Positions 7,231 to 35,793 of a DNA stretch of 64,000 nucleotides are shown piece after piece; positions within the stretch are counted from its first letter, which is position 1; every line of letters begins with the position of its first letter. This DNA comes from Candidatus Latescibacterota bacterium (GTDB lineage: Bacteria > JAAXHH01): NCBI GenBank assembly GCA_012270975.1, contig JAAXHH010000034.1, forward strand, positions 186,001 to 250,000, in the 5' to 3' direction. A model generated the notes under the pieces. That model saw only the letters and a list, made by a program, of their open reading frames with translations, ran no database searches and was not told the origin of the DNA. The position numbers and the translations under genes are program-made.

Positions 7231-8595
7231 TCAACCGCATCTTATGATTTCACGCGCCTGTTCAATCTGCTGCTCGATCGAATCTTTGCCGGTGCCTCCG
7301 GGCAGGGCGCGCTTGTCGGCGCTGTCGTCGAACCTGAGCTGATTGATCGATGCTTCGTCGAAATTTTCCGAATGCTGCTGATACAGATCCAGCGGCAGGT
7401 CCCGCAGGCTGCAGCCCCTTTCTAAGGCCTCGTCCACGAGCGACGCTACGATGCCGTGTCCTTCGCGGAACGGCACACCGCATTGGGTCAGGTAGTCCGC
7501 CAGGTCCGTGGACAGCATCGCGTCGTCCATGCTTTCTTCAACCCGGTCGCCCCTTACCTCCAGCGTCTCCCAGATCGCCGTGAAGACCGTCAGTGCGACG
7601 GTCACCGTGTCGATGGCGTCGAAGAGCGGTTCCTTTTCATCCTGCATGTCCTTGTTGTATGTGTGGGGCAGGCCCTTGAGTATGGTGACGAGGGAGAACA
7701 GACTGCCCACGACACGGCCGGTCTTGCCCCGCAGCAGTTCGGCGGCGTCCGGATTCTTCTTCTGCGGCATGATGCTGCTGCCCGTGGCCAGCCGGGGATG
7801 CTGCGTGACGTACCCGAATTCCGTGGACGACCAGATGACCAGGTCCTCGCAGGCCCGGCTGATACGGATCATCAGCGTCGTGCAGGCGGCGAGGAACTCG
7901 ACGTTGAAGTCGCGGTCGCTCACCGCGTCGATGCTGTTGGGCGAGATGCCGTCGAAACCCAGTTCATCGGCCAGGAACGCGCGGTCGATCGGGAAGGCGC
8001 TGCCCGCCATCGCCCCGGCGCCGAGGGGCATGACGTTGATCCGCTTCCGGCAGTCCGCCAGACGCTCCCGGTCCCGCTGGAGCCCGAACAGGAGCGAAAG
8101 GGCGTAGTGGGCGAACCGGATCGGCTGCGCCTGCTGCAGGTGGGTATATCCGGGGAAGACGACATCCACGGTACGCTCGGCCAGCCCCAGCAGCGCTGCC
8201 TGGCAATCCCGGATCCGCCCGGAGACGTCGTCCACCACCTCGCGGAGATACATTCGCTCGTCCGTGGCGTTCTGGTCGTTGCGGCTGCGGCCCGTGTGCA
8301 GCTTGCCGCCCACGGGACCCACTTTCTCGATCAGCCGTTTCTCCACGGCCATGTGGATGTCTTCCAGGTCCCTGGTCAGCGTGTAGGCGCCGCTTGCGAT
8401 CTCGCCTTCGATCTCGCCCAGCGCCTCTTCGATCGTCCGGCCTTCCTCCGCGGTGAGCACGCCGATGCGCACCAGCCCGCGGGCATAGGCGATGCTGCCC
8501 CGGATGTCCACGCGGAACAGGCGGCGGTCCGCGTCGATGGATGCGTGGAAGTCGTCCATCAGTTGTTTGAGTGCCTGGTCCCGACTGTCGGTCAT
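7231..8595 (-). CDS. argH: Argininosuccinate lyase
   Basis: 454 residues, normal length. Cleaves argininosuccinate to arginine and fumarate, the last step of arginine synthesis, as a cytoplasmic tetramer. The fumarase/aspartase-superfamily signature GSSIMPQKKNPD is present with its catalytic serine, and GGKLHTGRSRNDQ is the ArgH-specific N-terminal motif. It lies about 100 bases after argD in the same direction. Confidence 0.96.
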   Translation of the reverse strand: MTDSRDQALKQLMDDFHASIDADRRLFRVDIRGSIAYARGLVRIGVLTAEEGRTIEEALGEIEGEIASGAYTLTRDLEDIHMAVEKRLIEKVGPVGGKLHTGRSRNDQNATDERMYLREVVDDVSGRIRDCQAALLGLAERTVDVVFPGYTHLQQAQPIRFAHYALSLLFGLQRDRERLADCRKRINVMPLGAGAMAGSAFPIDRAFLADELGFDGISPNSIDAVSDRDFNVEFLAACTTLMIRISRACEDLVIWSSTEFGYVTQHPRLATGSSIMPQKKNPDAAELLRGKTGRVVGSLFSLVTILKGLPHTYNKDMQDEKEPLFDAIDTVTVALTVFTAIWETLEVRGDRVEESMDDAMLSTDLADYLTQCGVPFREGHGIVASLVDEALERGCSLRDLPLDLYQQHSENFDEASINQLRFDDSADKRALPGGTGKDSIEQQIEQAREIIRCG

Positions 8596-8693
8596 GATGC
8601 TTCCATTCTTGTTATAGCGGTCACTTTAACGGCGGTCACTTTGCGCGAGTAGCTCCTCACGGTGCGGGCAGTTCCTCACTTTGCGCGGGCAAC

Positions 8694-9887
8694 TCACCGC
8701 GCGTCCAACACCCCACCAAGTATTCCGAGCGCCTCGTCCACGTGCTGCTGCTCGATCACCAGAGGCGGCGCGCAGCGGAGCACGTTGTCCCCGGCCGTTC
8801 CCACGATCAGGCCCGCCTCCCGGCAGGCGTGCACGACGTCACCAACCTTGTCTTCGAATTCCACACCGATCAACAGGCCCGCGCCCCGGACATCCTTGAT
8901 GTCCTTGTGGGTTTCGGCGAGCGTATTCAGTCCGGCGGTCAGTTTTCCGCCCATTTCCAGGGCCCGGTCCGCCAGCGCCTCGTCGATCATCTTGCTGACG
9001 ACGGCGTGGGCCACGTGACAGGCCACCGGGTTCGCCCCGAAGGTGGAACCGTGCATGCCCGGCTTGAGGACCTCGGCGATGTGGGATTTCATCATGACGG
9101 CGCCGATGGGCAGGCCGCCGGCCAGCGGCTTGGCCAGGGTCATCACGTCCGGCTCGATGCCGTGGTGCTGGTAGGCGAAGAGCTTGCCCGTGCGGCACAG
9201 GCCGCACTGGATTTCGTCGAAGATCAGGGCGACTTTGCGTTCATCGCACAACTGGCGCAGATGCTGCAGGAATTCCACGTGGGCGGGATTCACGCCGCCC
9301 TCTCCCTGGACGGGTTCCACCATGACGGCCGCGGTCTTCTCCGCCGATATCGCCTCTTCGAGGGGCTCGATTTCGTTGAGCGGCAGATAGACCATGCCCG
9401 GGAGCATGGGCTTGAATCCTTCGTGGTACTTGGGCTGGGCCGTGGCGCTGACGGCGCCGTAGGTCCGGCCGTGAAAGGCATTCTCGAAGGTAACGATCTC
9501 GTGTTTTGCTTCCCCGCCCGCTTCTGACGCCCACCGGCGCGTGAACTTCAGGGCCGCTTCGATGGATTCGGACCCGCTGTTGCAGAAGAAGATCCTGGCC
9601 GGGAAGGCGTTTTCTACCAGCAGCTTCGCGAGTTTCACATGCGGTTCCGTGTGGTACAGATTGGAGATGTGCATCAGCTTCGCGGCCTGCTGCGCCACGG
9701 CGCCGATGATCTCCGGCACCCCGTGGCCCAGGGAATTCACCGCGATGCCGCCCAGGAAATCGAGATACCGCTTGCCCTCGAGGTCGTAGACGTAGGCTCC
9801 GCTGCCCCGGTCGAACACGACAGGTGGACGCACGTAAGTCGGCGCGATGTACTCTTCCTCCAGGGCGATGATCTCTTCGGTAGTCAT
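8694..9887 (-). CDS. argD: Acetylornithine aminotransferase
   Basis: 397 residues, class-III PLP aminotransferase that converts N-acetylglutamate semialdehyde to N-acetylornithine. Visible are NSGSESIEAALKF, FDEIQCGLCRTGKLF and TLAKPLAGGLPIGA, which holds the PLP lysine. The length is standard. It sits between argB and argH. The same fold also covers ornithine and succinylornithine transaminases, but the operon makes ArgD the best call. Confidence 0.93.
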   Translation of the reverse strand: MTTEEIIALEEEYIAPTYVRPPVVFDRGSGAYVYDLEGKRYLDFLGGIAVNSLGHGVPEIIGAVAQQAAKLMHISNLYHTEPHVKLAKLLVENAFPARIFFCNSGSESIEAALKFTRRWASEAGGEAKHEIVTFENAFHGRTYGAVSATAQPKYHEGFKPMLPGMVYLPLNEIEPLEEAISAEKTAAVMVEPVQGEGGVNPAHVEFLQHLRQLCDERKVALIFDEIQCGLCRTGKLFAYQHHGIEPDVMTLAKPLAGGLPIGAVMMKSHIAEVLKPGMHGSTFGANPVACHVAHAVVSKMIDEALADRALEMGGKLTAGLNTLAETHKDIKDVRGAGLLIGVEFEDKVGDVVHACREAGLIVGTAGDNVLRCAPPLVIEQQHVDEALGILGGVLDAR

Positions 9888-9950
9888 GCTGATTCCTTTC
9901 TTCCGATACGTGTTGCTGACTTCTTCGTCTCGTCCGATAGCAACAAGGCG

Positions 9951-10739
9951 TTATCCCGTGGTCACTACCGTTCCAAAAACACTTTCTTCCGATGCCAGTT
10001 CCCCGCGCAGCGTTCCCGGACCCTGCCAGGCGATGATGCGGGCGCGATGAACGCCGTGCGACAGGCACTCCAGGGCGGAATGGACCTTGGGAATCATACC
10101 GCCCGTGATCTCGCCCTCTTCGATCAGCGAATCGGCGAATCCAGGGGTCAACTTTCGAACGGGCCGGCCGTCGGACCGGTAGATGCCGGCCACGTCTGAA
10201 ATGAACACGACGTCGTCACAGGCCACGGCACGGGCGATGTCCAGCGCGGCGTGGTCCGCGTTGACGTTGTAGGTCTCCCCGTTGACGCCCCCTGAAATGG
10301 GGGAGACCACGGGCGTGACGTGGTTCGACGCACAGAGATCGAACAGGGCGGTATTCACTTCGACGATTTCGCCGACAAAACCGATGTCCACGCCATCCTC
10401 CCGGTACTTCTCCGCCCGCAGCAGGCCCATGTCCTTCCCGCTGACGCCCAAGGCGTTCACCCCGCAATGCTGGAAGCGCGAGACCAGTTCCTTGTTGACC
10501 TTGCCCGACAGGACCATCTCCACGATTTCGACCATGTCGCCGTCCGTGACCCGAAGGCCGTTCACGAAGGTGAACTCCTTGCCGAGCAACTCCAGGTAAC
10601 GCCCGATCTCCGCACCGCCCCCGTGGACGATGATCGGGAAGACGTCCGGCATGTCCCTGAGGTCGGCGGCCAGTTCCTCGATCACGCCGTCCTGCTCAAT
10701 CGTCGCACCGCCCAGTTTTATCACAATGTTTCGTTCCAT
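9951..10739 (-). CDS. argB: Acetylglutamate kinase
   Basis: 262 residues, amino-acid kinase fold. Phosphorylates N-acetylglutamate. The N-terminus NIVIKLGGATIEQDGVI, the glycine loop IIVHGGGAEIGRYLELLG and NVNADHAALDIARA are diagnostic. At 262 residues it resembles the short, E. coli-like form without the extra N-terminal helix tied to arginine feedback, so feedback control may rest elsewhere. It is flanked by argC and argD. Confidence 0.94.
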   Translation of the reverse strand: MERNIVIKLGGATIEQDGVIEELAADLRDMPDVFPIIVHGGGAEIGRYLELLGKEFTFVNGLRVTDGDMVEIVEMVLSGKVNKELVSRFQHCGVNALGVSGKDMGLLRAEKYREDGVDIGFVGEIVEVNTALFDLCASNHVTPVVSPISGGVNGETYNVNADHAALDIARAVACDDVVFISDVAGIYRSDGRPVRKLTPGFADSLIEEGEITGGMIPKVHSALECLSHGVHRARIIAWQGPGTLRGELASEESVFGTVVTTG

Positions 10740-12520: not shown

Positions 12521-12592
12521 ATGAAGATTTCCAAACGGGGGCAGATAACGATCCCTAAGCGGATGAGATACCGCTTTGGGATGAGTCCGGGC
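12521..12592 (+). pseudogene. Truncated AbrB/MazE-type antitoxin remnant
   Basis: After TGGAGG and a 5-base gap, ATG 12521 reads MKISKRGQITIPKRMRYRFG. This is the conserved N-terminal swapped-hairpin strand of AbrB/SpoVT-family antitoxins (consensus of the type KRGQITIPKxLRxRFGL). About 24 codons in, the homology stops exactly where the antisense of the moaC 3' end begins, so the rest of the gene and any toxin partner are lost. Non-functional fragment. Confidence 0.65.
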
Positions 12593-13083
12593 TACCCCGG
12601 ACCCTCCCACCCCGGCCTTTTGAACGTGCCCGATCTGCCGCCTTCCTTCTCCACCAGCAGGACGGATGCGATTTCCATGGTCCGGTCCACGGCCTTGCAC
12701 ATGTCGTAGATGGTCAGGGCGGCCACGGAAACGGCCGTCAGGGCCTCCATTTCCACGCCGGTCTTCCCGGACGCGACGGCCGTGGCCAGGAGTCCGATCC
12801 TGCCCTGGTCCTCGTTCAGGGTAATGTCGATATCCACGTGGGTCAGCGGGATGGGATGGCACATGGGGATGAGGTCGCCCGTCTTTTTGGCCGCCGAGAT
12901 GCCCGCGATCTTCGCCGTGGTCAGCACGTCCCCTTTGCCCATCTCGTCGGCGGAGATCTTCCGGATCGTCTCGGTCGCGGCCCGCACTTCGCCGTAGGCT
13001 ACCGCCCGTCTTTCCGTAACCGGTTTCTCCGTCACGTCCACCATGCGGACACGTCCTTTTTCATCGAGGTGCGAGAGGTCCAT
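12592..13083 (-). CDS. moaC: Cyclic pyranopterin monophosphate synthase accessory protein
   Basis: 163 residues. With MoaA it converts GTP to cyclic pyranopterin monophosphate in molybdenum-cofactor synthesis. Conserved MCHPIPLTHVDID and EMEALTAVSVAALTIYDMCK are present. Start ATG 13083 has GGAG 6 bases upstream; an alternative GTG at 13089 is two codons earlier. The start overlaps the end of the upstream ECF S-component gene, implying co-translation. No other moa gene is in the window. Confidence 0.94.
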   Translation of the reverse strand: MDLSHLDEKGRVRMVDVTEKPVTERRAVAYGEVRAATETIRKISADEMGKGDVLTTAKIAGISAAKKTGDLIPMCHPIPLTHVDIDITLNEDQGRIGLLATAVASGKTGVEMEALTAVSVAALTIYDMCKAVDRTMEIASVLLVEKEGGRSGTFKRPGWEGPG

Positions 13084-13669
13084 AATCACTCCGTTTCAAG
13101 GCGTTTCTCAACAGGACCGACAGGGGCAGGGCCACTACCACCGCCACACCGGCCTGCGTCAGGTTACCCGGGATCTCCGTCAGCGCGGCGACGCCTCCGA
13201 ACAACACCGATCCGGCCACGTAGTACCCGGATACCATCCAGGCGCCGCCCATCAATACCGCGGCGAAGGCCGCGATCCGACCGGGATGGCGACCACCCGG
13301 GGCGGCCGGCGCAGCGCCGGTGTCCAGTGCATCATGGGCGCTCTGGATGACCCGTCCGTCCCCGGCACCCCGGACACCCCAAAACGCGATCGTTCCGACC
13401 AGGATCCCTTCAATTCCCTTGATGACAAGCGTCCAGGGCGCCCAGATAAAGTAGCCTCCCAGCGCGTCGGCCAGCGCGGAACCGACCCCGCCTGCAAGCC
13501 CGCCGATACGCCAACCGAAGACCAGGGCGATGGTGAACAGCATCGCATCGCCGAGATTGATGTATCCCTGCGTGGCCGGATTGGGGATGCGTATGATCAC
13601 GGTCGCCAGCGTCACGAGTGCGATCGAGAGCGCGGCCAGCGTCAATCTGCGTACCGAAACAGCAGCCAT
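13061..13669 (-). CDS. ECF transporter S (substrate-binding) component
   Basis: 202 residues, about six membrane segments. The core NLGDAMLFTIALVFGWRIGG and ALADALGGYFIWAPWTLVIK fits the S-component family around PF07155 (riboflavin-type S proteins), which bind a vitamin or metal chelate and dock on an EcfA-EcfA-EcfT module. A hydrophilic insert at about 100-130 breaks the membrane pattern. It overlaps moaC by 23 bases. The only Ecf ATPase in the window is the fused gene at 31734-33530. Substrate unknown. Confidence 0.82.
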   Translation of the reverse strand: MAAVSVRRLTLAALSIALVTLATVIIRIPNPATQGYINLGDAMLFTIALVFGWRIGGLAGGVGSALADALGGYFIWAPWTLVIKGIEGILVGTIAFWGVRGAGDGRVIQSAHDALDTGAAPAAPGGRHPGRIAAFAAVLMGGAWMVSGYYVAGSVLFGGVAALTEIPGNLTQAGVAVVVALPLSVLLRNALKRSDYGPLAPR

Positions 13670-27220: not shown

Positions 27221-28231
27221 TCACTCTGCGGGCATGCCCCACTTTTCGGCGGCGACTGGTTTCACGGCGGGGTTTACGAGGCCATCTTCGGGCCAGCGGC
27301 CGCTGAGGATGGTGACCAGTTGCCGGCCGGCTTTTTTGAAACGCTCGATGCCGCCCCGCACCGATGCCGAAGCGTAGTGCGGCGTGAGCACCACCTGTTC
27401 CATCGACCGCAGCGGGTTGTCCGGGGCGGGCGGCTCCTGTTCCTGCACGTCCAGCCCGGCGCCGGCGAGCCACCCTTCACGCAGCGCCTTGATCAGGGCC
27501 TTCTCATCCACGACCTTGCCCCGGCCCGTATTGATGAAGTAGGCGGAAGGCTTCATGTTCCGGAAATCCCGCTCCCCGATGAGATGATAGGTTCCCGGTC
27601 CCAGGGGCACGTGGCAGGAAACGAAGTCCGACTCCCTGAACAGCGTTTCCTGGTCCACCATGGTCACGCCCCAGGGGTCGGCGTCGGCCTGGGTGACGAA
27701 GGGGTCGCAGGCGATGACGCGGAGATCGAATCCGGCGGCGATCTTCGCCATGGCCCGGCCGATGTTCCCGAAGGAGACCAGGCCGAGGGTCTGCTCGTAG
27801 ATGGGCTGAATGGTGCCGCGGCTGATAGGCGTTCCCTCCAGCATGGACCGGTTGATGATCATCAGCCGGCGGGCGCAGGCGAGCAGCAGCATCATGGCGT
27901 GCTGGGCGACTTCGCGTTCGAATACGCCCTGGATGTTGTACACGATGATGCCCCGTTCCGTGGCCGCCTCCACGTCGATGAAATCCACGCCGATCCCGCC
28001 CGCGCCGACCACGCGTATGCGCTCGGGCAGTCGCTCTACGTCTTCCCTCGTAAAGGTCAGGCCGCCCTGGGTGAATCCATCCACGTCCCGGGCTTCTTCG
28101 AGCATCTCTTCGACTGTTCGGAACGACCGGATCCTGAGCTCGGCGCCAATGGTCTTCAGTTCATCACGTATATATTGATTGGGGCCGGGGTTATCTGGAT
28201 TACCGGGCGCGAGGATAGTAAAACCAGCCAT
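27221..28231 (-). CDS. D-isomer-specific 2-hydroxyacid dehydrogenase
   Basis: 336 residues, NAD-dependent reduction of 2-keto acids to D-hydroxy acids. NAD-binding LGLVSFGNIGRAMAKIA and the catalytic triad in INTGRGKVVDE (Arg), LDVQEQEPP (Glu) and LTPHYASAS (His) are complete. Start ATG 28231 has AAGGAG 7 bases upstream. First gene of the three-gene minus run and divergent from the larBC operon, whose cofactor serves 2-hydroxyacid racemases. Confidence 0.92.
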   Translation of the reverse strand: MAGFTILAPGNPDNPGPNQYIRDELKTIGAELRIRSFRTVEEMLEEARDVDGFTQGGLTFTREDVERLPERIRVVGAGGIGVDFIDVEAATERGIIVYNIQGVFEREVAQHAMMLLLACARRLMIINRSMLEGTPISRGTIQPIYEQTLGLVSFGNIGRAMAKIAAGFDLRVIACDPFVTQADADPWGVTMVDQETLFRESDFVSCHVPLGPGTYHLIGERDFRNMKPSAYFINTGRGKVVDEKALIKALREGWLAGAGLDVQEQEPPAPDNPLRSMEQVVLTPHYASASVRGGIERFKKAGRQLVTILSGRWPEDGLVNPAVKPVAAEKWGMPAE

Positions 28232-28559: not shown

Positions 28560-29828
28560 ATGCACTCATTCGCCCTGCTCCTGACCAGCCTCTGTTTCAT
28601 CGCGCTGACCGCCGCGTGTACGCCGGCGGAAGAACCCATGCCCGAGGATCCCGTCGAACGCGCAAAGTCACTGCACGCGAAAGTCCCGCTGATCGACGGC
28701 CACAACGACCTGCCCTGGCAGATTCGCAGGAAGGCGAACCGGGACGTTTGGTCGATCGATATCGACCAGCCCCAGCCCGATTTCCATACCGACATCCCCC
28801 GCCTGCGCGAGGGCATGCTGGGCGCCCAGTTCTGGTCGGTCTACGTACCCGCGTCCATGCAGGGCAAGGAAGCGACACGGGCCACCATGGAAGAAATCGA
28901 CATCGTGTACGAGATGATCGAACGGTATCCGGACACGTTTCAACTGGCCACCACGGCCGATGAAGTGGAAGCAGCCTTCGCGGCGGGAAGGATCGCGTCC
29001 ATGATGGGTATCGAAGGAGGCCATTCCATCGATTCATCCCTCGGCGCGCTCCGCATGTTTCACCGGCTGGGCGTGGGATACATGACCCTGACGCACAGCC
29101 GGAATATACCTTGGGCCGATTCGGCGACGGATACCATGGCGGTCGACGGCCTGACGGAATTCGGGAAAGAAGTGGTCCGGGAGATGAACCGCCTGGGCAT
29201 GCTGGTGGATCTGTCCCACGTTTCCCCGGCGACCATGCACGACGCCCTGGACGTGACGGAGGCCCCGGTCATCTTCAGCCATTCCTCGTCCTTTGCCATG
29301 TGCAACCACGTGCGCAATGTCCCCGATGACGTCCTGGTGCGACTGGCCGAAAACAACGGCGTGATCATGGTCACCTTCGTTCCGGGCTATATCTCGGAAG
29401 AAACCCGCCTGCACGGCGTGAAGCGCAACGAAGAACGCGAGCGGCTCGCGTCTGTGCCGGGCAGTACGGATGAATCGGTGGCGGAAGGCATAGCCGCCTG
29501 GAACGAGGCCAATCCCACGCCGCCCGCCACCCTGGCCCAGGTGGCCGACCATATCGACCACATCCGGCAGGTGATCGGCATAGATTACATCGGCATCGGC
29601 GGGGATTACGACGGCATTTCCAGTTTGCCGGTGGGACTGGAGGACGTCTCTACCTACCCCATGCTGACGGCCGAACTCGTCCGGCGGGGATACTCGGACG
29701 AGGACATCTTGAATATCCTCGGACGCAATGTGCTGCGCGTGATGCGCGAAGCGGAGGCGGTGGCGGCCCGTCTGCAGCAGGAGCGCCATGCTTCGGGCGC
29801 GCGCATCGAAGTCCTGGACGGTGAATAG
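28560..29828 (+). CDS. Membrane dipeptidase (peptidase M19), lipoprotein
   Basis: 422 residues. Zinc dipeptidase of the renal-dipeptidase/M19 family. Lipobox LTAAC at about residue 20, so it is anchored facing the periplasm. Metal ligands: [10 protein letters not shown] (HxD), MGIEGGHS (bridging Glu), DLSHVS (His), FSHSS (His), and GIGGDYDG near the end. GGAGG lies 4-5 bases before the ATG at 28560. The larB start follows 3 bases after its stop, so it leads the lar operon. M19 enzymes can also act on D-amino-acid-containing dipeptides. Confidence 0.9.
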
Positions 29829-29831
29829 CCA

Positions 29832-30584
29832 GTGAACGAAACGCAGATCAGGCAACTGCTCGAGCAGGTCCGATCGAGGGAGCTGACGGTGGACGACGCT
29901 TCCGCTCGGTTGCGCTCCATGCCTTTCGAGGACCTGGGGTTCGCGCATGTAGACCACCACAGGGCGCTGCGATGCGGGTTCCCCGAGGTGATCTTCTGTA
30001 CGGGGAAGACCGACGAACAGGTAGCCGCGATCGCGGAACGCATCGTCGCCTCGGGCAGCGACCTGCTCGCCACGCGGGCGACCCCGGCCATGTACGAGGC
30101 CGTGACGGCGCGGTGTCCCTCCGCGGAGTACCACGAGGAGGCACGGGCGATCGTGGTCCAGGATGCCTGGCGGGACATGGGAATCGGCGAGGTTCTGGTC
30201 GTCTCGGCGGGCACCAGCGACATCCCCGTGGCCGAAGAGGCCGCGGTGACCGCCCGGGTCCTGGGCAACCGGGTGGAACGCGTTTTCGACGTCGGCGTGG
30301 CCGGCATCCACCGCCTCCTTTCCCATCGTGAGGCCATCATGAACGCGTCGGTGCTCATCGTCGTGGCGGGCATGGAAGGCGCCCTGCCCAGTGTGGTTGG
30401 CGGGATGGTCTCTCGCCCGGTGATCGCCGTGCCGACCAGCGTGGGATACGGCGCAAGTTTCGGCGGGCTGGCGGCGCTCCTGGCCATGCTGAACAGCTGT
30501 GCGTCGGGCGTCACGGTGGTGAACATCGACGGCGGGTTCAACGCCGGATACGCGGCGGGCCTCATCAACCGGAAGCACGAATAG
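29832..30584 (+). CDS. larB: LarB, pyridinium-3,5-biscarboxylic acid mononucleotide synthase
   Basis: 250 residues. LarB carboxylates nicotinic acid adenine dinucleotide and releases AMP, the first step to the nickel-pincer nucleotide cofactor of lactate racemase. Family motifs: [36 protein letters not shown] and the PurE-like core with [20 protein letters not shown]. The length is normal. GTG start, 3 bases after the dipeptidase stop. Confidence 0.92.
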
Positions 30585-30597
30585 GACGGCGGATCCA

Positions 30598-31737
30598 ATG
30601 GCGGTGGCGGGTTATTTCGACCAGTTATCCGGATTCAGCGCGGACATGCTGCTTGGTGCGCTGATCGGCGCGGGCTCGGACCCGAACGCCCTCGAAGCGG
30701 CCTTGAAACGCCACCATGGCGTGGACTGCGAGATCAACGTCACCCAGGGGCGGGTCGATGGGACGCAGGTGACGTACGCCTCCGTGTCGCACGTCGAGGC
30801 TTCCGTGCCGGAAACCTACCGGGCCATACCGGATGGCGGAGCGGGCACGCCGGCCGGCGTACTCATTGGCCGGGTGATCGGCCATCTCGAAAACAACGTG
30901 AACGAGCTTTGGGAGTCCGGGGACCCGGCACCGGCGGAGGAAGCACTGGGCGGCCGCCACGCGGCCCTGCGCATCCTCGTCCTGTGCAACGCCCTGCGTC
31001 TTCACGGGATCGACGCCCTCTACCACGAGGCGCTGCCCTTCGCCGCGGGGATCGACTCCACGCCTCCCCTGCTGGCCGCCCTGATGCGGGGCGCAATCGT
31101 ACGGCCCGTCGACCGCGCCGCCGTCGACCTGGCGGGTTGCGCCGTTTTGACCGCGCTTTCCGCGGGATCGATGCACGGGTCCGGCTTTACGCTGCGGACG
31201 GTGGGCTACGGGGGTAACAGCGCCGACTCTGATCATGGGGACTTCACCCGGCTATGCACGGGTGAAGTCGCCCAACCGGTCGATACGGAATCCGTGCAGG
31301 TCCTGGAAACCCAGATTGACGACATGAATCCGCAGTTCTACGGCCACGTCCTGGACCTGCTGCTCGAAGCAGGTGCGCTGGACGCGTTCCTTACGCCCGT
31401 GACCATGAAGAAAAGCAGGCCGGGCGTGCTGCTCACCGTGCTGGCGCCCACCGCCCTGGCCGGCCGGCTGTCCGACGTGATTTTCAGGGAAACGACGACG
31501 ATCGGCCTCAGAAGCTACCCCGTCTCCCGAAGCGTTCTGCCCCGCAGTGAAGCAACCGTCGATACCCCGTACGGCGCCATCCGGATCAAGATCGTGCGGC
31601 GCGGTGATTCACGGCGATACACCCCTGAATACGAGGATTGCCGCGAGGCCGCCATTAAGTCCGGAATTCCACTCGCCGACGTGTACGCGGCCGTCCACGA
31701 GGCCGCCGGCCGCCTGGATCTGGATCACCTGCCGTGA
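30598..31737 (+). CDS. larC: LarC, nickel-insertion protein for the pincer cofactor
   Basis: 379 residues. LarC inserts nickel into the pincer nucleotide in a CTP-dependent reaction. Both halves are in one reading frame: N-terminal GFSADMLLGALIGAG and C-terminal ETQIDDMNPQFYGHVLDLLL, DAFLTPVTMKKSRPGVLLTV. In some lactobacilli larC needs a ribosomal frameshift between these halves; none is needed here. The first motif reads YFDQLSGFSADM where I recall YFDCFSGISGDM, so a conserved Cys and Gly are changed. 13 bases after larB; overlaps the next gene by 4 bases. Confidence 0.9.
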   Translation: MAVAGYFDQLSGFSADMLLGALIGAGSDPNALEAALKRHHGVDCEINVTQGRVDGTQVTYASVSHVEASVPETYRAIPDGGAGTPAGVLIGRVIGHLENNVNELWESGDPAPAEEALGGRHAALRILVLCNALRLHGIDALYHEALPFAAGIDSTPPLLAALMRGAIVRPVDRAAVDLAGCAVLTALSAGSMHGSGFTLRTVGYGGNSADSDHGDFTRLCTGEVAQPVDTESVQVLETQIDDMNPQFYGHVLDLLLEAGALDAFLTPVTMKKSRPGVLLTVLAPTALAGRLSDVIFRETTTIGLRSYPVSRSVLPRSEATVDTPYGAIRIKIVRRGDSRRYTPEYEDCREAAIKSGIPLADVYAAVHEAAGRLDLDHLP

Positions 31738-33530
31738 TCGTCGCCGAGGACGTGACCTTCAGTTACCGCCTGCCGTCGGGGAACGAGGTCCCCACGCTGC
31801 GAGGCCTGTCCATCGAGATCGCCGAATCCGAATGCGTGGCCGTGATCGGTCCCAACGGCTCCGGGAAGAGCACCCTCGCCCGCTGTCTCAACGGGTTGAT
31901 CGTCCCCCGATCAGGCCGGATCCTGGTGGACGGCCTGGATACGGCCGATCCCGCGAACAAGTGGAAAATCCACCAGCTGGCCGGGATGATCTTCCAGAAT
32001 CCGGACAATCAACTGGTGTCGACCACGGTGGAACGGGAAGTGGCCTTCGGGCTCGAAAACCTCGGCCTGCCTTCCCGGGAGATTCACCAGCGCGTCGCGT
32101 GGACGCTAGACCGGTTCCGCCTGACCAAATACCGCCAAAACCCGCCCCACAAGTTATCGGGCGGTGAAAAACAACGGCTGGCCATCGCTTCCGTGGCGGC
32201 GATGCGTCCCCGGTATCTCATTTGTGACGAACCCACCTCCTCCCTGGACCCCGGCGACCGGCGGGACATCCTGGACCTCCTGATGGCCATGGTGAATGAA
32301 TACCGGCTGAGCGTGGTGTTCATCACGCAGTCTCCCGAGGAAGCCGCCCGGATGGACCGCATCGCGCTGGTGGCGGACGGGGATGTCGTCGCGGCTGGAA
32401 CTCCGGAAGAAGTATACCGGGACGCCGAACGCCTCTCGGCGCACGGACTCGAGGCGCCGCTGGCCAAGCGGCTGGCAGATTCCCTGCGCGCCCGCGGCGT
32501 TGACGTGCCTGCCGGAACCGTCCATACCGAATCCCTGGTACGGTGGATATCGGAGCGGCACCCGGCTTCGCCGGCAGAGGGGAAGCCGGTCTCGCCATCG
32601 GGAGGGAAACCGGGGGAATACACTCCACCGGCCGCCGGACCGCCTATCATCGAGTTTGACCGGGTGTGCCATACCTACTCCCCCGGTACTTCCCTGGAGA
32701 TCCGGGCGTTGCGCGATGTGACCACGAGGGTTTTCCCCGGGGAGTGCATCGCGCTGACCGGGCCGAACGGATCCGGAAAGTCCACGATGATCCAGCACCT
32801 CAACCGCCTGCTGAAAGCGGATTCGGGCACGGTTCGGGTCGAGGGCGGGGATGTATCTTCCCCGGAGACCGACCTGGGGAAGCTGCGCAGGAAGGTAGGG
32901 CTGGTCTTCCAGTTTCCCGAGGCCCAGTTGTTCGAGGAAACCGTGTTCGACGACGTGGCCTTCGGCCCCCGGCAGATGGGTGCTGCGGAATCGGAAATCC
33001 CCGGCATGGTGAACCGGGCGCTCGAGCGGGTCGGCCTTGATCCGGCTCACTTTTCACACCGACATCCCCTGTCGCTGAGCGGCGGAGAAAAACGCAGGGC
33101 CGCCATCGCCGGAATCCTCGTCATGGAGCCTGCCGTACTCGCCCTCGACGAGCCCACGTCCGGTCTCGATCCGCAAAGTGCCGGACAGGTCGAGGCGATT
33201 TTCAAAGGCTACAGCGATACGGGGGCGACCCTTTTCCTGATCACCCATGACATGGACCTGATATCCCGCCTGGCCGACCGGATCCTGGTCATGGAAAACG
33301 GCGGCATCGCGGCGGACACCACGCCGGGCCGCCTGTTCGCCATGGAGGACGGCGTCGATTCGTGGTCGCCGGGACGGCCCGGGCTGTGCAACCTGCTGAC
33401 CGCCGTCGGCGAAGCCGGAATCCCCGTCGATCCCGGCTGTTTCGACCTGGAAGAAGCGGCGGACACGATCAGCGCGAGCGTGCTCAAGGGCAACCATCAC
33501 TCCAACCCCGGAGAATGCGATCCATGCTAG
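31734..33530 (+). CDS. Fused EcfA-EcfA' ATPase of an ECF-type transporter
   Basis: 598 residues with two complete ABC ATPase domains. Domain 1: Walker A GPNGSGKST (39-47), LSGGEKQR (141-148), Walker B LICDEPT. Domain 2: Walker A 343-351, LSGGEKRR (448-455), LALDEPT. The H-loop His is present in domain 2 (ITHDMD) but is Gln in domain 1 (ITQSPEE), so one ATP site may be slow or inactive. A Pro/Gly/Ser linker (about 275-303) joins the domains and a 50-residue tail follows. GTG start overlaps larC. No EcfT gene is in the window. Likely energises uptake of nickel, niacin or another vitamin. Confidence 0.9.
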   Translation: MIVAEDVTFSYRLPSGNEVPTLRGLSIEIAESECVAVIGPNGSGKSTLARCLNGLIVPRSGRILVDGLDTADPANKWKIHQLAGMIFQNPDNQLVSTTVEREVAFGLENLGLPSREIHQRVAWTLDRFRLTKYRQNPPHKLSGGEKQRLAIASVAAMRPRYLICDEPTSSLDPGDRRDILDLLMAMVNEYRLSVVFITQSPEEAARMDRIALVADGDVVAAGTPEEVYRDAERLSAHGLEAPLAKRLADSLRARGVDVPAGTVHTESLVRWISERHPASPAEGKPVSPSGGKPGEYTPPAAGPPIIEFDRVCHTYSPGTSLEIRALRDVTTRVFPGECIALTGPNGSGKSTMIQHLNRLLKADSGTVRVEGGDVSSPETDLGKLRRKVGLVFQFPEAQLFEETVFDDVAFGPRQMGAAESEIPGMVNRALERVGLDPAHFSHRHPLSLSGGEKRRAAIAGILVMEPAVLALDEPTSGLDPQSAGQVEAIFKGYSDTGATLFLITHDMDLISRLADRILVMENGGIAADTTPGRLFAMEDGVDSWSPGRPGLCNLLTAVGEAGIPVDPGCFDLEEAADTISASVLKGNHHSNPGECDPC

Positions 33531-34417
33531 TCGACATCCATACCAACCTGATGTGGTACCCGGATCATATGTCCGACGAATTCGTGGAATTCGCCTACGC
33601 CGCGAAGAAAGCCAAGATGCGGCTGTCGGAGGACGTATACTACGCCGGCCACGAGGACCGGTACAAGAACGCCTTCGATTCCACGCCCGATTCGCTCCTG
33701 CAGGCGACCGAAGACTGCGACAGGGTGGTGGTGTTCGGGCTGAAAGCACCCTATTGCGGGGTGGACGTGCCCCAGGAGCTCGTCGCCGGATTCGTGGCGG
33801 AACACGCGGACCGTTTCATCGGCTGGTGTTCCGTCGACCCGAACGACGAAGACGCCGTGGAACAACTCGAATACAATGTCGAAACGCTCGGCCTGCGCGG
33901 ACTGAAGGTCGCCCCGATCTACCAGCACTTCGATCCGCAGGACCCGGCGCATCTTCCCCTGTTCAAGAAGGCGGAGGCGCTGGACATCCCCGTGATCTGG
34001 CACCAGGGCACTTCCTTCGTGCGGCCGGGCCCGCTCAAATGGGCCAATCCGATCCAACTGGAGGACATCGCGGTAGCCTGCCCGGACCTTCGGATGATGA
34101 TCGCCCACATGGGCCATCCGTGGGAAGACGAATGCGTCGTCCTGATCCGGAAGCATCCGAACCTTTACGCGGACATATCGGCCCTGCACTACCGCCCGCT
34201 TCGGCATTACATGGCCTTCATGTCCGCCCTGGAGTACGGCGTGGAGCACAAGCTGATCTTCGGCTCCGATTTTCCCTCTGCCACGCCGGCGCAGGTCATA
34301 GCGGGGCAGTGGAAGGTGAACGACGTCGTACGGAATACGTCCCTGCCCGTGTTTCCGGAAGAGGCCATCCACAACATGATCTATGAAAACTGGAAGCCGT
34401 TTCTCGGAGAGCTGTAA
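33524..34417 (+). CDS. Amidohydrolase-2-family metal-dependent hydrolase
   Basis: 297 residues, TIM-barrel hydrolase or decarboxylase of the Amidohydro_2 type. Visible: MLVDIHTNLMW at the start, where the usual HxH reads HTN, so one metal ligand is missing; IWHQGTSF; MMIAHMGHPWEDE; and IFGSDFPSATP with the catalytic Asp. Start ATG 33524 has GGAG 10 bases upstream and overlaps the Ecf ATPase stop by 7 bases, making it the fifth gene of the operon. Members of this family decarboxylate or hydrolyse aromatic or ring acids. Confidence 0.83.
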   Translation: MLVDIHTNLMWYPDHMSDEFVEFAYAAKKAKMRLSEDVYYAGHEDRYKNAFDSTPDSLLQATEDCDRVVVFGLKAPYCGVDVPQELVAGFVAEHADRFIGWCSVDPNDEDAVEQLEYNVETLGLRGLKVAPIYQHFDPQDPAHLPLFKKAEALDIPVIWHQGTSFVRPGPLKWANPIQLEDIAVACPDLRMMIAHMGHPWEDECVVLIRKHPNLYADISALHYRPLRHYMAFMSALEYGVEHKLIFGSDFPSATPAQVIAGQWKVNDVVRNTSLPVFPEEAIHNMIYENWKPFLGEL

Positions 34418-34420
34418 TAA

Positions 34421-34449
34421 AAAAGGGGCGACCGATAGTGGCCGCCCCT
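34421..34449. terminator. Terminator between convergent lar and tol-pal operons
   Basis: AGGGGCG (34424-34430) pairs with CGCCCCT (34443-34449) around a 12-base loop. On the minus strand it is followed by TTTTTTATT, a good end for pal. On the plus strand it lies 7 bases after the amidohydrolase stop without a U-run. Confidence 0.75.
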
Positions 34450-34486: not shown

Positions 34487-35140
34487 CTACTTGCGCTTCA
34501 ACTCCACGCGCCGGTTCTGCGCCAGGGCGTTTTCGTCACTGCCCGTGACCGACTGCCGCTCTTCACCGTAACTGACGGTCTCGATGCGGTCTTCCGCCAC
34601 GCCGGCATCCACGAGGTACGCCTTGACCGCCTCGGCGCGCCGTTCACCCAGCGCCAGGTTGTATTCGATCGTGCCCCGTTCATCGGTATGGCCTTCGACC
34701 ACCACCCTGTCTTCGGTCTGGTACTCCCGCAGCTTGCGGGCGTTTTCATCCAGGACCGAACGCTGGTCCTCCCGGACGTCCGACCGGTCGTAGTCGAAGT
34801 AGATGGTGGCCAGGGACGTCATTTCCTGGTGCAGGGCCTCGGCCGCCCTTCGGGCTTCCTCTTCGGCGGCCAGGCGCCGGGCTTCTTCCTCGGCCGCGAG
34901 ACGGGCCTGCTCTTCGGCGGCCAGGCGCCGGGCTTCTTCCTCAGCCGCGAGACGGGCTTCCTCTTCGGCCTGTACCGCTCTGAGCGAATCCGCTATGGCC
35001 CGCTGACGCTCCGCCTCCATCGCCGCCAGTTCTTCCGCGGAAGGCCCCCGGGTTACGGCGCAGCAGGCGCCCATCCACACGGGAGCGGCGACCAAAACAC
35101 AGAGCGCCAGTACAGAAGCCGCATTGCTCCATTGTTTCAT
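34487..35140 (-). CDS. Pal-type peptidoglycan-associated lipoprotein, copy 1
   Basis: 217 residues. Lipobox-like MGAC near residue 26, then a long charged helix at about 35-105 made of EEEARRLA-type repeats, then an OmpA C-terminal domain with [15 protein letters not shown] and [12 protein letters not shown], which binds peptidoglycan diaminopimelate. Links the outer membrane to the wall and to TolB. Start ATG 35140 with AAGGAG 6 bases upstream. Copy 2 lies 11 bases away and is nearly identical, so this is a tandem duplication. Confidence 0.9.
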
Positions 35141-35151
35141 GAACAACTCCT

Positions 35152-35793
35152 TTACTTGCGCTTCAACTCCGCGCGCCGGTTCTGCGCCCAGGCGCTTTCG
35201 TCGCCACCCATGACCGCCGGTTGTTCTTCACCGAAACTGACCGTTTCGATACGTCCATCCGCCACGCCGGCATCCACGAGGTAGGTCTTGACCGCCTGGG
35301 CACGCTGCTCACCCAGCGCCAGGTTGTATTCGATCGTACCCCGTTCATCGCAGTGGCCCTCGACCACCACCATGTCCTCGGACTGGTACTCCCGCAGCTT
35401 GCGGGCGTTTTCATCCAGGGCCGAACGCTGGTCTTCCCGGACGTTTGACATGTCGTAATCAAAGTAGATAGTGGCCAGTGACATCATCTCCATGTGCAGA
35501 GCTTCGGCGGCCCTGCGGGCTTCCTCTTCGGCCAGACGGCGGGCTTCTTCCTCGGCCGCGAGACGGGCTTCCTCTTCGGCCAGGCGACGGGCTTCTTCTT
35601 CGGCCGCGAGACGGGCTTCCTCTTCAGCGCGTACCGCTCTGAGCGAATCCGCTATGGCCTGTTGACGCGCGGCCTCCATCGCGGCCAGTTCTTCCGCGGA
35701 AGGGCCCCTGGCACAGGCGGCACCCATCCACGCGGAAGCGGCGACCATCAAACAGAGCGCCAGGACCGAATACGTGCTGCGCCATCTTTTCAT
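35152..35793 (-). CDS. pal: Pal-type peptidoglycan-associated lipoprotein, copy 2
   Basis: 213 residues, same layout as its neighbour: lipobox MGAAC, repeated EEEARRLA helix, OmpA domain. The peptidoglycan-binding motif reads [12 protein letters not shown], with Cys replacing the usual Thr. AAAGGAG lies 7-8 bases before the ATG. It is nearer the tol genes than copy 1, so is the more likely primary Pal; which copy works with TolB cannot be told from sequence. Confidence 0.9.

Follow-up and report, generated by a model that had tools for sequence, protein, structure and literature searches.

A degenerate LarC1–LarC2 fusion and an unlinked LarC1 point to a split nickel insertase in Candidatus Latescibacterota

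Why do two genes for synthesis of the nickel-pincer nucleotide (NPN) lie in one run with the ATPase of an energy-coupling factor (ECF) transporter, and is the nickel insertase encoded there complete? The question is raised by a 64,000-nucleotide stretch of DNA from Candidatus Latescibacterota bacterium (the window; positions 186001–250000 of contig JAAXHH010000034.1, C116 in our numbering, in the 4.06 Mb, 160-contig draft genome GCA_012270975.1), in which a dipeptidase gene, larB, larC, a gene for a fused ECF ATPase and an amidohydrolase gene follow one another. The larC product, which together with its counterparts in relatives we call dLarC, has a canonical LarC2 half joined to a LarC1-like half that has lost most of its conserved residues, and an intact LarC1 is encoded on another contig of the same genome. 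The five genes, with the two halves of larC, are:

28560–29828, + strand, M19 membrane dipeptidase (PF01244, 404.6 bits; PDB 3id7, E = 2e-118)
29832–30584, + strand, larB with a GTG start (NF033503, 297.1 bits against a cut-off of 175; PDB 7mj0, E = 5e-71)
30598–31737, + strand, larC (dLarC), whole gene (Pfam LarC profile, in two pieces)
30598–31287, + strand, degenerate LarC1-like half of larC, residues 1–230 (11 of 35 conserved LarC1 columns)
31288–31737, + strand, canonical LarC2 half of larC, residues 231–379 (NF052512, 152.6 bits against a cut-off of 50)
31734–33530, + strand, fused EcfA1–EcfA2 ATPase with a GTG start (TIGR04520 and TIGR04521, over cut-off)
33524–34417, + strand, PF04909 amidohydrolase (119.8 bits), substrate unassigned

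For comparison, we used 16 genomes of the class, the window's own included; a search of the phylum gave the identical 16. Window-type LarC occurs in 15 of them (the window genome and 14 relatives, from three families), at identities to the window protein ranging from 85% down to 37%. The standard for conservation was a set of 65 LarC proteins from GTDB; a conservation of 95% or more is reached there by 35 columns in the LarC1 half and by 19 in the LarC2 half. The underlying GTDB scan, covering the best 80 of 591 listed stretches (583 confirmed), used search patterns within LarC2, is non-exhaustive and may omit records from the window's own kin; a start-motif filter, which would remove dLarC-like proteins too, took 15 of the 80 loci out of the standard.

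Measured in this way, the window LarC keeps all 19 LarC2 columns and 11 of the 35 LarC1 columns, and was classed as carrying a canonical LarC2 domain but no canonical LarC1 domain, and so not as a full-length LarC. The Pfam LarC profile matches it in two pieces with 220.2 bits overall (cut-off 22.1), and the LarC1 model TIGR00299 is not listed for it in the scan with NCBI models. Because the Pfam profile passes while the LarC1 half fails, the gene could be misannotated as a full LarC. The same picture holds across the 15 dLarC proteins: each retains 19 of 19 LarC2 columns and between 9 and 18 of the 35 LarC1 columns, and 20 of the 35, the HxHE and TPTGA motif columns among them, survive in no more than 10% of the proteins. 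The ratio of non-synonymous to synonymous substitution rates (dN/dS; medians of 66 same-genus pairs per gene or half) is 0.335 for the N-terminal half of dLarC, 0.181 for its LarC2 half and 0.162 for the stand-alone LarC1 described below. The N-terminal half is relaxed, at about twice the LarC2 half, yet still constrained. We also considered dLarC as a pseudogene; a dN/dS below 1 in both halves rules this out.

In a sequence search, residues 5–371 of dLarC align to a full-length LarC (PDB 12bi, E = 1e-40), from which dLarC differs by its lost LarC1 columns. The predicted local distance difference test score (pLDDT) of its structure model exceeds 80 over residues 11–140 and lies mostly at 56–83 over residues 141–230; Foldseek with this model retrieves a solved LarC2 (6bwo, E = 9e-16), and the 50 matches listed contain no LarC1 structure, nor 12bi. 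The 15 LarC2 halves form one clade, supported at 100/99 among 80 rows in a tree of few columns whose bootstrap had not settled, and no protein of the dLarC type was found in other phyla among the best 80 of the 591 GTDB loci.

The intact LarC1 is encoded on contig C105. It has 258 residues, stops before LarC2, scores 204.3 bits with TIGR00299 (cut-off 90) and aligns to residues 21–254 of the same full-length LarC, 12bi (E = 3e-62). A stand-alone LarC1 is present on another contig in all 16 genomes, the copy in relative G013 being a contig-edge fragment, and all 15 complete copies keep 34 of the 35 LarC1 columns. Against the GTDB LarC loci, taken without the start-motif filter, it outscores the N-terminal half of dLarC in 80 of 80. 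G013 is also the genome in which a protein search found no dLarC. Its larB is found at a contig end (C143); starting at a GTG 8 bases past the larB stop, the next frame can be read as LarC2, and it leaves only about 34 codons ahead of the LarC2 part, too few for a LarC1. This frame seems, from its sequence, to begin directly at LarC2, the N-terminal half being absent; as the LarC2 reading spans 22 codons at a contig end, it is a pointer and not a proof. The surroundings of LarC1 have a regularity of their own: on C105 its gene stands just 5′ of genes read by eye as hexulose-6-phosphate synthase and isomerase (HPS and PHI; locus L009, 6759–8799, − strand). HPS and PHI genes adjoin LarC1 in six of the seven loci with flanks, all six of the genus, and no match to either was found in the 0.57 kb before the contig end at the seventh (G001).

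The sequence-only reading, made from the letters of the window, held that its LarB and LarC make NPN. This stands for LarB, which is canonical, colinear with residues 5–245 of solved LarB (7mj0), the sole LarB over cut-off in the window genome and present exactly once per genome in 16 of 16; it does not stand for this LarC alone, with its LarC1 half decayed and an intact LarC1 elsewhere. That reading was right that the window holds neither larE nor larA, and that they and ecfT should be sought in the rest of the genome: all three turn up on other contigs, and LarE and LarA-family (PF09861) proteins over cut-off occur in each of the 16 genomes. LarE of the window genome is encoded on C90, and three candidate NPN-dependent isomerases on C104, C96 and C95. 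The C104 LarA matches PDB 9eid/9eia ('broad-substrate spectrum lactate racemase A') with 448 bits and with its His and Lys positions aligned by eye. It resembles in this the type of those structures, which we take to be the Isosphaera pallida enzyme, but is unlinked to biosynthetic genes and below the NCBI LarA cut-off (404.8 against 460). A LarAH14/15/16-type protein is likewise short of its own cut-off (508.4 against 740); the third candidate, a group-22 isomerase, passes (520.6 against 400). The LarAH14/15/16-type gene (locus L012, 7205–8794, − strand, C96) has a BioY gene some 10 kb away; in several relatives, LarA-family and PF12822 matches share a contig at a similar distance. Judged by these genes, the NPN pathway looks complete in the genome.

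We consider it likely that the nickel insertase of these bacteria is split over unlinked genes whose products work in trans, that the fusion carries a decaying LarC1-like domain, and that the neighbouring ATPase belongs to a vitamin ECF module. LarB from the window would make the dicarboxylate and LarE from C90 would thiolate it, following the chemistry of the LarB–LarE–LarC steps as given in parts of PMC9283937 and PMC11796402. The split LarC would then insert nickel: the stand-alone LarC1 from C105 would give the N-terminal function in trans, and dLarC would provide the CTP (cytidine triphosphate)-dependent LarC2 domain; the LarC1-derived domain fused to it, now without most of its conserved residues, probably only aids folding or docking. 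The cofactor would pass to the LarA-type isomerases encoded elsewhere (C104, C96, C95). Both the complementation in trans and this flow of substrate are inferred.

How much of the neighbourhood takes part? The gene run is real and conserved. Its spacing, recomputed here, agrees with the sequence-only reading (five genes on one strand, gaps of 3 and 13 bases, overlaps of 4 and 7), and the conserved order in relatives that it called for, as opposed to random neighbours, is found: larB, larC, ecfA and the amidohydrolase gene are contiguous in 15 of 15 dLarC genomes. A shared transcript for the five genes, which it had also proposed, is probable. The promoter scan of the region gave 1 site against 1.3 expected, and 7 terminator-like hairpins were found against 4.0 expected by shuffling. 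Two further features flank the run, the first of them the divergent dehydrogenase gene that the earlier reading had placed there:

27221–28231, − strand, D-2-hydroxyacid dehydrogenase family protein (PF02826, 198.4 bits; start codon by eye)
34424–34449, − strand, terminator-like hairpin between the gene run and the convergent pal gene, its T run serving the pal side

A serious competitor, to which we give somewhat less than an even chance, is that the neighbours, functionally unconnected, have simply been inherited together in a lineage that rearranges slowly, and that only LarB and dLarC matter; it is compatible with a split LarC, so the two likelihoods do not add up. The adjoining Pal and Tol genes are kept equally well, with at least one Pal-like gene 3′ of the unit in 15 of 15 genomes, and part of the gene-order conservation is therefore general synteny. 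(The window has two tandem Pal-like genes at 34487–35793, − strand, and then Tol genes up to 40029.) The upstream genes, moreover, differ between families. The dipeptidase gene adjoins larB in 14 of 16 genomes, including G006, where the contig ends inside it, and lies 3 bases from larB in 9 of the 12 genomes of the genus; in the two other families (G014, G015) it is not beside larB, and it is a looser member of the unit. Its product has a lipoprotein-like signal (lipobox by eye). The dehydrogenase gene neighbours the unit in 14 of 16 genomes. Against mere synteny speak the junctions themselves, the 4-base overlap of larC and ecfA being kept in 14 of 15 dLarC genomes (G015 has a 68-base gap) and the 7-base overlap of ecfA and the amidohydrolase gene in 12 of 12 genomes of the genus (the other three have gaps of 22–24), as well as G015, whose upstream side is wholly different, lacking both dehydrogenase and dipeptidase, while the four-gene core is unchanged. 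Of all genes compared, that of the amidohydrolase is under the strongest constraint (median dN/dS 0.047, against 0.128 for LarB), and the protein has 83–86% identity in the other genus and the two other families; its nearest solved relatives are the uncharacterised BB4693 and a protein named only 'amidohydrolase'. Beside LarC in the best 80 of the 591 GTDB loci, where flanking DNA is limited and many contigs are short, we found no amidohydrolase or dipeptidase match and no fused-ATPase neighbour; 11 of the 80 have single-domain ABC matches to the ATPase (77–112 bits).

It is, in our estimate, unlikely that dLarC is instead a complete, fast-evolving nickel insertase and the stand-alone LarC1 a nickel store or a protein of some other role. 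Such a history would suit the order of helices and strands in the N-terminal half, similar by eye to that of the LarC1 model, the weak match of this half to a stand-alone LarC1 (26% identity, E = 2e-9, one pair), its dN/dS below 1, and the 18 of 35 columns kept in G015. It fits poorly with the 20 columns, HxHE and TPTGA included, that hardly any dLarC retains, with the seeming absence of the N-terminal half in G013, and with the retention of LarC1 in all 16 genomes.

By eye, the fused ATPase shows both Walker A and LSGG signatures. Of the 16 genomes, 14 gave two EcfT matches and the other two gave one each. One type, EcfT1, has truA as its neighbour in 15 of 15 loci, and the 0.7–1.5 kb available on its other side contains no fused-ATPase match; EcfT2 adjoins a fused ATPase of its own in 15 of 15. 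In the window genome the EcfT2 unit is at 8100–10584 (− strand) of locus L011, C96, and no S component was noticed among the adjoining open reading frames, in which no targeted search was made. In JCVI-syn3, EcfA, EcfA′, EcfT and TruA are numbered consecutively, 0643–0640, in the portion of PMC4993169 that lists them; set against this run, what is missing beside the truA-linked EcfT is exactly the ATPase pair found in the window. The fused EcfA1A2 most likely energizes a general vitamin ECF module that has the truA-linked EcfT, and its place in the gene run is most likely an old conserved linkage. The likeness to a vitamin-type EcfA–EcfA′–EcfT module lies in the A1 and A2 models over cut-off and in EcfT beside truA; the differences are that A1 and A2 are here fused, apart from ecfT–truA, and in a run with lar genes.

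As for substrates, CbiM (PF01891) was found in 0 of the 16 genomes, the control giving matches in 3 of 14 named genomes. For S families, the genome-wide searches covered CbiM and PF12822 only; the window genome yielded two S components, BioY and a PF07155 protein. The latter, encoded about 15 kb from the unit and outside it, is a candidate client of the ECF module:

13061–13669, − strand, ECF S component (PF07155, 125.2 bits; 23.4 in the PF12822 search against a cut-off of 30.7)

Its gene overlaps moaC (12592–13089, − strand) by 29 bases; the pairing is odd and may be a clue to the substrate of the protein. Nickel import by the fused ATPase, proposed by the sequence-only reading, was accordingly dropped as our principal interpretation, given the missing CbiM, the lone EcfT beside truA as in a vitamin-type module, and the S components found. 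The wider form of that proposal, a unit devoted to importing nickel or a pyridine precursor for NPN synthesis, has in its favour the conserved overlapping gene order and the cobalt-type cbiM listed beside lar genes in a figure legend on the lar regions of Lactobacillus casei BD-II and L. plantarum (PMC3496567), but is very improbable in view of the same CbiM count and of the S components obtained with the CbiM and PF12822 searches, the EcfT genes of the window genome on other contigs, and the want of amidohydrolase or fused-ATPase neighbours in the best 80 of the 591 GTDB LarC loci. The same legend means that transport coupling as such is not new.

Several points weigh against the split insertase. 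The meeting of the unlinked LarC1 with dLarC is itself a prediction. The N-terminal half of dLarC may have a function of its own, and in G015, where it is least decayed, the Pfam match is full-length (326 bits). The dLarC and LarC1 models are single chains built from 15 and 14 sequences, and that of LarC1 is poor over residues 165–206 (mean pLDDT 70). An assembly error might account for the G013 evidence. All the genomes are drafts and incomplete, with 5.7% contamination in that of the window; nevertheless the split pattern recurs in 15 of 15 dLarC genomes. The pairing of EcfA with EcfT1 was reached by elimination, without a genome-wide EcfA search. A more specific form of the split insertase, which we put forward tentatively and as rather doubtful, is a two-chain enzyme from unlinked loci in which the former LarC1 domain now serves the true LarC1 as a non-catalytic subunit for docking or control; the LarC1 step and the CTP-using LarC2 step would be separately regulated, and one genus would have dropped the pseudo-domain.

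The three steps proposed are those of LarB, LarE and LarC in Lactiplantibacillus plantarum, as described in the parts of PMC9283937 and PMC11796402 covered here. Separate genes larC1 and larC2 are already named in lactobacilli, in the legend that sets the lar region of L. casei BD-II beside that of L. plantarum (PMC3496567), where they are drawn in one cluster; here the two are on different contigs, and a degenerate LarC1-like domain is still encoded in the LarC2 gene. Anaerobutyricum has scattered lar genes, with larC1 and larC2 under adjacent locus numbers; the Enzyme Commission number of its 'larC2' is that of the LarB step, so that a split LarC may not be involved. In L. plantarum, both larC1 and larC2 are translated by way of a frameshift. 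The conserved degenerate fusion together with an unlinked LarC1 is a new variation on separate larC1 and larC2 genes, not a kind of its own; no description of a degenerate LarC1–LarC2 fusion was found in the literature searched, a coverage to which the primary LarC papers do not belong.

An Escherichia coli Duet system for NPN has been published (PMC11796402, seen in part), and in the portions of that paper and of PMC9283937 covered here the division of work between LarC1 and LarC2 in forming the Ni–C bond is not spelled out. With a LarC2 fused to a decayed LarC1 and a separate, sound LarC1 in the same genome, these bacteria present a natural domain-separation experiment.

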